Part shown: in pieces, positions 51,209-56,575 of the stretch
Layout of the letters: the number at the start of each line of letters is the position of its first letter
Position numbering within the stretch: position 1 is the stretch's first letter
Assembly: GCA_003169895.1 (NCBI GenBank)
Contig: PNAE01000008.1
Coordinates: 89,751-153,750, forward strand
Source: Gemmatimonadota bacterium
GTDB taxonomy: Bacteria > Gemmatimonadota > Gemmatimonadetes > Gemmatimonadales > GWC2-71-9
Length of the DNA stretch: 64,000 nucleotides
Direction: 5' to 3'
The notes under the pieces: generated by a model
The model's input: only the letters and a program-made list of their open reading frames with translations
Databases searched by the model: none
Told to the model about the DNA's origin: nothing
Program-made: the position numbers and the translations under genes

Positions 51209-51370
51209 TCCTGTCATTACCTCAGTACCGTATGGCCCTGCCTACGCGTCGAAGGAACCGAACGAGACCGCTTCGTGGAGAAGGTTCCTTGCGGCTTCCG
51301 CTCGGTTAGCATCATGAGGGGTTAGTAGACAGTGCAGACCATTCTGCCCTCCCCCCCCCCCTCGGCGGCA

Positions 51371-51420
51371 GTCGGGTCACTTGCGCTTGCGGCAACGGCA
51401 AATCGGTCGCGAGCCTAGGT
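51371..51420 (+). repeat. dispersed repeat A copy 1
   Basis: gtcgggtcacttgcgcttgcggcaacggcaaatcggtcg, near-identical to 62706. Confidence 0.85.
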
Positions 51421-51552
51421 TCGGAGGGGGGTGGTTACGCTTGGGGCAACGATTATCCATCGGCGCCCAGTGTCGGGAATCGAACACGGCTTTGGGAAAG
51501 TGCGCGCTCAGCTTTGCGCGAATCCGCGTCGAGACGTAATCTTGGCGAACCC

Positions 51553-52647: not shown

Positions 52648-52746
52648 CCCGACTATACGACCGCGCGGCGCGGCCGGGCGGTTCGCTCCAGTGGGATTGC
52701 TCTGCGGTTGCGCGGCCGCGGACCCGCCAATCATTTTACCAACTCA

Positions 52747-52813
52747 GCCTAACCACCGAGCGTTAGGCGGGCGTCACACGGCCGTGCCCGTCCGCTGCAG
52801 GCGCTGGTTAGAC
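52747..52813. other. integron attC-like recombination site (67 bp)
   Basis: Plus strand GCCTAAC ... GTTAGAC; minus strand GTCTAAC ... GTTAGGC; imperfect inner complementarity around CACGGCCGTG. Confidence 0.6.
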
Positions 52814-52820
52814 GGCGGCG

Positions 52821-53324
52821 CTAGGGACTTGTCTGCGGTAACAGCTCCCCACACATGCCGCCGATGATCAGCCATGTGCCGCCAGACCGACGCCAGGTGT
52901 GTGTGAACTTGAAGACGCGATCACGGTCCACAACCCTGCCGTCCGGATACTGATAGACCATGGGCGTCTGGTAGTAGGCCACCACGATATCACCGAAGTC
53001 CGCAGCGCCCTCACGCGTCAGTCCGTAGGTGAACCTCACTTTCTGGTCGCGGATGTCGCGTACCCAGTCGGTGATGGTCGCCTTGGTGGCGGGGTGTTGG
53101 GCCTTGCACGGCCAACCTCGAAAGCTGTCGTCCCAGAGTGCGCGGTAGTTGTCGACATCGCCGGACTGCACAAAGCGCCAGTACTGCTGTTCACGCGCCC
53201 ATACGGCTTCGACGCCCGCGCTCGTGCCCGACGCCGGTGGCAGTTGTGCCTGGCTCACGCCAGTCACCAATATTATCAGTGGGACGCCGACTGCCACATG
53301 ATTCAACCACTGTCGAGTAGTCAC
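52821..53324 (-). CDS. SnoaL/DUF4440-like secreted protein (cassette gene)
   Basis: GTG start behind aggagg; signal-like VGVPLIILVTGVSQAQ; WAREQQYWRFVQSGDVDNYRALWDDSFRGWP; TWRRSGGTWLIIGGMCGE. Confidence 0.75.
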   Translation of the reverse strand: MTTRQWLNHVAVGVPLIILVTGVSQAQLPPASGTSAGVEAVWAREQQYWRFVQSGDVDNYRALWDDSFRGWPCKAQHPATKATITDWVRDIRDQKVRFTYGLTREGAADFGDIVVAYYQTPMVYQYPDGRVVDRDRVFKFTHTWRRSGGTWLIIGGMCGELLPQTSP

Positions 53325-53356
53325 ATGCCCCTCCTGGTGAGTCAACATCAGCCGCT

Positions 53357-53363
53357 GCCTAAC
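53357..53363 (-). other. attC-type core site GTTAGGC upstream of the minus-strand cassette gene
   Basis: gcctaac on plus strand, 33 bp before the GTG start at 53324. Confidence 0.4.
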
Positions 53364-53642
53364 TCCCAATTATACAGCATGGCGCGACCCCGACCGCCAC
53401 GTCTCGCAGCCGAATCCGGGAATACTGCAACCGATCACGTCCCACCCCGGTCACGCGGCTCCCTACACCATGCCGCAACCGTAACTGACCCGCCGGGGGG
53501 AGCTACCAAAGAGCAACGCCAGATCAATCGACGTCGACGTGAAGACCCCGCCGCCAACCTTGGAGAGTGTGATCGATCCTGCTACGCAGTCTTCGTAGAT
53601 CGCCGCGCTACCGGGCTAGTTAGGGGAGTTATCCACGACGCA

Positions 53643-54584: not shown

Positions 54585-55133
54585 TTAGCACTGAGATGCA
54601 ATCCTCGTGGTTCGCGTAGCAGCCCACGCCCCACATCCTAGGTCGCCGGAGAAATGCGGTCCAACCTGCCGCGCCAGCTTGCTGGCTGCTGCCCGGTGCG
54701 CACGCTCTGTCGCGGCCGCCGATGTTGACGGCGAGAGCGGGCCGCCCGAGAAGCCGCCGCGACAATTGGGATGACTTTGGCAAACAACGAACTGAATGAG
54801 GAAGCCCAACGCAGCTACGGTGAACACCGTCGCCACGCTACCAAACGACTGGCGCTCGACGCGGGTAACCTGCGTCACCGGAAAGCCCATGAGAACCGGG
54901 GTGAGCGATCCTCGCACCAACCGCCCGACAGCCACGCCTACCAGTGAATCATGCTGAACATGCAGGTTGGTAAGCTGGACGACCCGCCCGGTCGTGAGCG
55001 TAATCCGGTAGCGATCGGTGGGCTTGCCGCGATCGAGCTTCGGGACGGGGCTGCTGTCCTGATGCCAGGCGTAGCAGCCGGTTGATTCCACGGCGAACAG
55101 TGCGAGCAGTGACAGAGCGATAATGCGGCGCAT
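54585..55133 (-). CDS. exported lipoprotein, family B copy 1
   Basis: MRRIIALSLLALFAVESTGCYAWHQD; RITLTTGRVVQLTNLHVQHDSLVG. Confidence 0.75.
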   Translation of the reverse strand: MRRIIALSLLALFAVESTGCYAWHQDSSPVPKLDRGKPTDRYRITLTTGRVVQLTNLHVQHDSLVGVAVGRLVRGSLTPVLMGFPVTQVTRVERQSFGSVATVFTVAALGFLIQFVVCQSHPNCRGGFSGGPLSPSTSAAATERAHRAAASKLARQVGPHFSGDLGCGAWAATRTTRIASQC

Positions 55134-55177
55134 ATGCCTTCCTCACGTTCGAGACGCCGGAAGTGTCGCCATCTGCC

Positions 55178-55194
55178 GTCAAGCGGGAGTCGAG
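55178..55194 (-). promoter_or_regulatory. candidate SARP-type operator S4
   Basis: gtcaag (55178) and gtcgag (55189), 11-bp spacing, 45 bp from ATG 55133. Confidence 0.55.
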
Positions 55195-55264
55195 CGCGCG
55201 GTGACCTCAGGGCACCGGCTGCCACAAGGCTCACGCCCTCTGTCGCGCCCGCCGATGTTGGCGG

Positions 55265-55645
55265 CTAGTACTCGTAGCAATGAGGGGAACAAGAGGATGA
55301 CGCAATTACCCAGGCAACGACGAGGCCCAGCAGCGCCACGGCCCCCACCGTGACGCCTGTGGCTCCGGCGTTGAGCGAGCGGCGCGCGACACGGGTCACC
55401 TGCGTCACCGGAAAGCCAGTTGGCGCCATCCCATATTCGACGGCCGCGCCAAGCAGTGAGTCATGTTGAACATGTAGGCTGGTGAGTTCGACGACCCGCC
55501 CGGTCGTGAGCGTGATCCGGTAATCGTCCGTGGACTTGGCGCTCTGGAGCGTCGGAACGGGCCTAGTGTCCTGGTGCCAGGCGTAGCAGCCGGTTGATTC
55601 CATCGAGAACAGCATCAGCAGCGACAGAGCGATGATGCGGCGCAT
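55265..55645 (-). CDS. exported lipoprotein, family B copy 2
   Basis: MRRIIALSLLMLFSMESTGCYAWHQD; RITLTTGRVVELTSLHVQHDSLLG; upstream DNA also matches copy 1. Confidence 0.78.
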   Translation of the reverse strand: MRRIIALSLLMLFSMESTGCYAWHQDTRPVPTLQSAKSTDDYRITLTTGRVVELTSLHVQHDSLLGAAVEYGMAPTGFPVTQVTRVARRSLNAGATGVTVGAVALLGLVVAWVIASSSCSPHCYEY

Positions 55646-55689
55646 ATGCCTTCCTCACGTTCGAGACGCCGGAAGTGTCAAAACCTGCC

Positions 55690-55706
55690 GTCAAGCGGGA
55701 GTCAAG
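55690..55706 (-). promoter_or_regulatory. candidate SARP-type operator S3
   Basis: gtcaag (55690) and gtcaag (55701), 11-bp spacing, 45 bp from ATG 55645. Confidence 0.6.
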
Positions 55707-55761
55707 TCGTCATCAGACTGGTGGAGCACGACGACTTCCGCCGCCGGGCAGTTCCGCGCGA

Positions 55762-55860
55762 TCATTTCGGCGGATCATGTGGTCGACCGCATACTGTTTG
55801 CCTGCAGACGCGGACCACCGCGGCCATCAGAGGCATCCCCGCAATCTTCGGTATGCGCAC
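55762..55860 (-). pseudogene. remnant of a family-A gene 5' end
   Basis: VRIPKIAGMPLMAAVVRVCRQT...*; DNA matches the start of the gene at 61733 (caatcttcg-n-gcgcacgat-agcctcc). Confidence 0.5.
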
Positions 55861-55915
55861 GATCAGCCTCCGATTCCATAGGTGATCAGCGGCTTTCGCA
55901 TCGACCCGATACCCG

Positions 55916-56575
55916 TCAAAAGGTGATGTGCAGTCCCACCACCGCTCCGTTCCTCCACGTCACCAGCGGTACCACGGTGGTCGACAGACCGGCCGGTAGT
56001 TGGTTCACCAGGTGCCACTGCGACCCGCGTGGCACCACGCTGCCGATGATGGCGCCGATCGCACCGAACGCCACCGCGGCGCCCACCCCGTATGCGGCCC
56101 GAACGGCGGAGCGCAACCCGGTAGCGTCGCCCACCACAGAGCATCCAGGCTCCGGTTGACAGTGAACTGGGATCAGCATGCCGAATGCGACCCCGGTTCC
56201 AGCCCCGATGATCGCGCCCGTGAGCACGTGGGGCCGGCGCGACGCGTGCTCGCCGCGGACCTCAAGGCTGTGAGTCGAGGCCGGCGCGATGTGGTACACC
56301 CGGCCGGGCGCCAGGGCGTCCGACACGGCGATGGTATCAGCCGCAATCGACGTGATCCGTCCCATGAGCCGAACGTCGGATTTGTTCTTTGACCACCGCA
56401 CCACCGCACCCGGAACCAGCAGATTCGCCTGCTGCGCCCTCAACGACGTGGCCGCGGCGACCAAGTACAGCCCGGCAACCAGCATCCTCTTTGTGTCCGG
56501 CCGCGCACGAGACATGGTCAGACTCCTCCGTAGGACGGTCATCAGGATCGTCGAAAGAGCGGTGATTCGGCGCAT
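55916..56575 (-). CDS. exported protein, family C copy 1 (glycine-zipper-like)
   Basis: VPGAVVRWSKNKSDVRLMGRITSIAADTIAVS; LTGAIIGAGTGVAFGM; alternative internal start MSRARPD with its own RBS. Confidence 0.7.
   Translation of the reverse strand: MRRITALSTILMTVLRRSLTMSRARPDTKRMLVAGLYLVAAATSLRAQQANLLVPGAVVRWSKNKSDVRLMGRITSIAADTIAVSDALAPGRVYHIAPASTHSLEVRGEHASRRPHVLTGAIIGAGTGVAFGMLIPVHCQPEPGCSVVGDATGLRSAVRAAYGVGAAVAFGAIGAIIGSVVPRGSQWHLVNQLPAGLSTTVVPLVTWRNGAVVGLHITF

Follow-up and report, generated by a model that had tools for sequence, protein, structure and literature searches.

A single gene cassette headed by an attI site without an integrase gene, probably a fixed integron remnant, in a Gemmatimonadota genome

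The DNA analysed here is a 64,000-nucleotide stretch of the genome of a soil-type Gemmatimonadota bacterium (hereafter the window), in which a preliminary description had recognized an integron gene cassette on the minus strand. The minus-strand features that it named were all recovered at 52747-53363, and their coordinates are collected in Table 1. A Shine-Dalgarno sequence, AGGAGG, lies about 5 nt 5' of the GTG start at 53324 (minus strand). The distances between the cassette ends and the gene had been described as short and proved to be so, with about 32 nt from the core to the start codon and 7 nt from the stop codon to R''. The cassette starts with GTTAGGCAGC, an extended 5' core that is the same as at many other cassette starts, and its single gene ends close 5' of the attC site. 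Short motifs by themselves were of little use in this genome. The heptamer GTTAGGC occurs three times in the window against 2.6 expected, and the R''...R' consensus occurs 16 times per strand of the genome against 57 for a control pattern, making it rarer than the control. The signal from plain searches with GTTAGGC or RYYYAAC...GTTRRRY is inseparable from chance.

Table 1. Features of the cassette and its surroundings, in window coordinates.
Feature	Position	Strand	Details
attI, ~75 bp	53354..53430	-	GCAGTATTCCCGGATTCGGCTGCGAG...GTATAATTGGGAGTTAGGC; initial ~25 nt equivalent to the final intI codons in relatives
TATAAT just 5' of the crossover	53368..53373	-	From alignment; common to several attI sites of the genus
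Upstream block	53431..53510	-	Common to solo attI sites at C12 of the same genome and at G001:C70
5' core GTTAGGC, attI/cassette junction	53357-53363	-	Crossover between G 53363 and T 53362
Gene cassette, circular form, 610 bp	52753..53362	-	Ends inferred from two G^TTAGGC cores
Cassette gene, 167 aa, GTG start	52821..53324	-	Signal-like N-terminal segment and DUF4440/SnoaL-like domain
attC, 67 nt	52747..52813	-	R'' GTCTAAC 52807-52813, R' GTTAGGC 52747-52753
attC arms		-	From the fold: L'' AGCGG-A-CGGGC, loop, L' GCCCG-CC-[TAAC]-GCT

The attC site had been called textbook-like, which is true of only part of it. The consensus R'' RYYYAAC and R' GTTRRRY does enclose an imperfect hairpin, as had been proposed, and the outer core and the 5' arm are canonical. 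The usual bulged A is present in the stem, and in the 5' arm GTCTAACCAGCGCCTGCAGCGGACGGGC closely resembles ACCTAACCCGCGCTTGCTGCGGACGGGG from an attC of a congener. The 3' arm, however, carries a 4-nt insertion, the bases TAAC within L', and the site scored only 19.7 bits. A third GTTAGGC (plus strand, 52762-52768) lies inside this arm, which also contains an extra inverted core, GCCTAAC...GTTAGGC, at 52747-52768. Scores were taken from a covariance model (R1) of 23 attC sites, with the window element excluded and long loops omitted; five of them belong to class 1 cassettes at plasmid loci, and the other eighteen to relatives or to the integron on contig C8 of the same genome. The model comprises 22 pairs with strong covariation, and 93.8% of its cells were paired compared with 76% in shuffles. 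On the covariance-model score, which the preliminary description had offered as a check of its reading, the attC was the top match within the window (E = 0.027) but borderline alone genome-wide (E = 1.4). Strong attC sites listed in the family and order reach about 29-70 bits. The chance of an equally good R1 match within 1 kb and on the right strand was ~2e-4 (1.44 per 6.84 Mb strand). The fold z-score of the attC was only −0.9, and an Rfam search of the window gave no matches. The score is borderline because the TAAC insertion disturbs the 3' arm, and the site is plausibly a damaged attC.

The strongest evidence for a cassette lies just upstream of it and had been overlooked. When the 6-kb locus was compared with nine congeners, almost the sole recurrence was a stretch of ~70-140 bp that abuts the cassette on its upstream side. 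This DNA recurs at C12:90521 of the same genome and at G001:C70 and G001:C58. The G001:C58 counterpart lies 3' of a C-terminal integron integrase remnant, and in G002 related sequence lies 3' of an intact intI, so we identify the DNA upstream of the cassette as an attI site. The local alignment with the G001:C58 attI scored 51, whereas 2000 shuffles reached at most 26. An nhmmer profile of intI-adjacent attI sites from several genera matched the site at E = 1.2e-7, and a second model (R2), two of whose four sequences had been found through the window, matched at E = 7.4e-13 within the window. A third model (R3), made from eight attI sequences of relatives, mostly beside intI genes, gave 41.0 bits and E = 6.8e-10 per genome, which was the best attI of the genome (next best 0.003); among 20 simulated controls, none matched below 1e-3. 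The site is homologous to intI-adjacent attI sites of relatives and ends in the crossover core, and the cassette start coincides exactly with the crossover GTT. With an attI directly 5' of the first GTTAGGC, the evidence goes far beyond chance. A second attI-like stretch downstream of the cassette (52649-52675) was dropped as a chance match at 3.9 bits.

The TATAAT next to the crossover is possibly a −10 element or the left half of the recombinase core site; a full sigma-70 promoter pair was looked for and none was found. The attI region may help to express the cassette gene. The flanks of the locus were sought in nine congeners and were absent from all of them, so neither an empty site nor an alternative occupancy was seen. 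Tandem genes with similar N termini, MRRI(I/T)ALS, lie at 54585-56575 (minus strand), and none of them matches Pfam. A short repeat is shared, at 85% over 61 bp, between 51364-51424 of the window and C2:152449-152509 of the same contig.

As previously reported, the window contains no intI, and the whole of contig C2 was likewise without an intI match. A tblastn search with six integrases found no intI within 1.5 kb upstream of the attI, and the locus thus lacks the intI beside attI that marks a complete integron. Elsewhere in the genome, where it had been suggested that intI be sought, there is one integron-type integrase match, on contig C8, and it is broken. This intI is split by a frameshift and lacks its C-terminal quarter or more; same-strand cassettes and attC sites follow it. 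At C8:314404-315083 (L012 8355-9147, minus strand), the C-terminal part of the gene is replaced by a SnoaL-like gene and an attC. The frameshifted intI has a tRNA-Gln gene immediately 5' of it. Among relatives of this genome, 77 of 150 carry intI, and the arrays examined were all co-oriented, with the array 3' of intI. The window element is oriented as in these reverse-orientation integrons, and the place of intI is vacant.

The R3 model was used to survey attI sites in 102 family genomes, with upstream intI judged by tblastn with the six integrases. Thirty sites were found in 18 of the 102 genomes. A full intI lay upstream of eight (L040 counted), a fragment upstream of five, and none detectable upstream of 17, the window site included. 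A cassette that has a complete attC follows at least three other integrase-less attI sites, and attC sites of 46-53 bits follow those at G043:C1, G026:C80, and G006:C57. At G002:C288, an integrase-less attI is followed by the 5' arm of an attC, where the contig ends. Cassettes likewise follow the attI sites of G026:C14 and G007:C7, which have intI fragments upstream. Many solo attI sites have no attC, and the genes flanking solo sites are mostly unrelated. Several attI sites can occur in a genome beside a single full intI, with three in G065 and four in G026, two of the latter with intI fragments. In G067 (L131 and L147, on C12 and C31), an intI-adjacent and a solo attI show ~7 differences ahead of the crossover but share the next ~35 bp without a mismatch up to the point where both contigs end, which hints that the same cassette entered both.

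Other attC-bearing loci were noted in the window genome. Arrays or single attC sites without a nearby intI (CALINs) lie at C9:35366-40165, C9:15442-15532, and C11:7427-7515. At C10:1174-1226 (L104, minus strand), a weak attI precedes the gene of a secreted protein and then an attC-like R'', GCCTAAC, that an IS110-family-like element appears to interrupt; upstream is a tRNA-like 3' end. Some IS elements target attC, and this case resembles them.

The cassette gene had been described as SnoaL/DUF4440-like. Its product matched DUF4440 (PF14534) in Pfam at 31.9 bits against a gathering score of 25.2 (E = 2e-7), while the match to SnoaL_3 fell just below. From its sequence, the product is probably an exported SnoaL/NTF2-like protein. 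The gene is patchy in distribution: among 288 further genomes from the order, one has a relative (59%), and a second relative (61%) is in a Blastocatellia MAG. No attC was found near these relatives (Blastocatellia MAG; G240), and the gene looks like a chromosomal gene captured as a cassette. A PDB search with the protein returned chance matches only. Both non-cassette relatives, one of them in another phylum, directly precede a PknB-type kinase gene (L106 2895-3423, L108 1485-1843).

The reading of 52747-53363 as an integron gene cassette is thus supported, most strongly by the attI, and recombination by IntI is predicted. Because the attI is directly upstream of the cassette, the element has the order attI-cassette-attC, and we consider it very probable that this is a fixed integron remnant, in which the attI and one cassette (the DUF4440 gene with its attC) remain and the integrase gene has been lost. 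IntI would have inserted a circular cassette at the G^TTAGGC of the attI, with the attC of the cassette taking part as a folded bottom strand. The integrase gene, which is directly upstream and co-directional in relatives, would then have been deleted or eroded until only its last ~25 nt were left, and the cassette would have stayed. The direct observations behind this reading are the upstream homology to intI-adjacent attI sites, the cores at both ends, the attC-like 3' site, the absence of intI at the locus, and the broken intI elsewhere in the genome; from these, it would follow that IntI made the insertion and that intI once stood at this locus, and the element is most likely now immobile. 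Loss of intI is favored by the graded series of attI sites (full intI at 8, partial at 5, none at 17). The remnant reading also draws on the like anatomy elsewhere in the family, on how common intI is in the lineage, and on the patchy distribution of the cassette gene. At this locus we infer the loss, as no similarity to intI is detectable in the 80 bp that lie 5' of the attI; the block at 53431..53510, which recurs at C12 and C70, was considered as an eroded intI and found no support. Against the remnant reading stand the degenerate attC, which alone falls below a genome-wide threshold (E = 1.4), and the lack of an observed empty site.

An alternative is a dispersed attI platform. Under it, attI sites that lack an intI of their own would have become scattered across these genomes, and the one active IntI in each cell would fill them in trans; the window locus would be such a site, stranded since the resident IntI broke. 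We regard this as rather unlikely. It is consistent with the survey of 102 genomes, in which 17 attI sites showed no detectable intI, several of them sharing a genome with one full intI and most standing among unrelated flanking genes, and with the G067 pair, identical after the crossover as if one cassette had entered both. That identity, however, extends over only about 35 bp, graded intI remnants also occur, and many solo attI sites have no attC. We know of no mechanism that copies attI alone. For the solo attI at this locus, loss of intI is favored over dispersal of attI sites served in trans; solo attI sites in general may be either decay products or dispersed sites. The broader proposal that integrons of this family are distributed, with one IntI serving stand-alone chromosomal attI sites that each hold one or a few cassettes, is similarly doubtful; if it were true, captured genes would enter varied genomic neighborhoods rather than a single array. 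Off-target insertion, in which an IntI acting elsewhere placed the cassette at a chance G^TT and so made a single-attC CALIN, is a route proposed for CALINs (PMC8618304) and would fit the other intI-less attC clusters on C9 and C11, but the target here is a recognizable attI and not a random site, which makes it very improbable. Least credible is chance, an ordinary gene and a G+C-rich imperfect palindrome beside a promoter-like repeat that resembles attI: the attC E-value per genome, its fold z-score, and the lack of heptamer enrichment would allow it, but attI models from other genera match at 1e-7 to 1e-10 while simulated controls are clean below 1e-3, the junction register holds at both ends, and attI sites of the same type elsewhere head cassettes with strong attC sites.

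Compared with class 1 cassettes (aadA1, aadB; L094-L096), the window element has the same kind of R''/R' cores, the bulged A in L'', and a gene close to its attC, whereas its attC is 7 nt longer with the 4-nt insertion in L'; the attI sites were compared at the core only. Like a CALIN, it is a cassette with an attC and without a nearby intI, and CALINs are thought to arise through loss of intI or off-target insertion. IntegronFinder 2 sets a default limit of two attC sites for a CALIN (PMC9024848), and the window element, with one, falls outside it. The element also keeps its own attI, a part outside the CALIN definition. Standard searches look for an intI or for two or more attC sites, and attI-headed single-cassette units without intI are invisible to them. 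In the open-access literature, we found Gemmatimonadota named as integron carriers without further description and found no reports of stand-alone attI sites. If such units are as common as 17 of 30 suggests, cassette capture would have given these genomes more genes than current counts include, and the functional unit of an integron may be a group of attI sites at scattered positions.

In Xanthomonas, integrons at ilvD have had their intI inactivated or deleted (PMC12444791), and as in the window element, the cassettes became fixed after integrase loss. The window element differs in having one cassette and no recognizable intI beyond its last codons, and in relatives a single genome can have several of these sites, each in an unrelated place. 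Treponema integrons have the reverse orientation, with intI transcribed toward attI and the cassettes (PMC3607928). This is the orientation seen in relatives of the present genome, and intI-less remnants likewise exist there, in a different phylum. The T. phagedenis remnant was reported as attC sites and cassettes (PMC3607928), whereas the window element has an identified attI.
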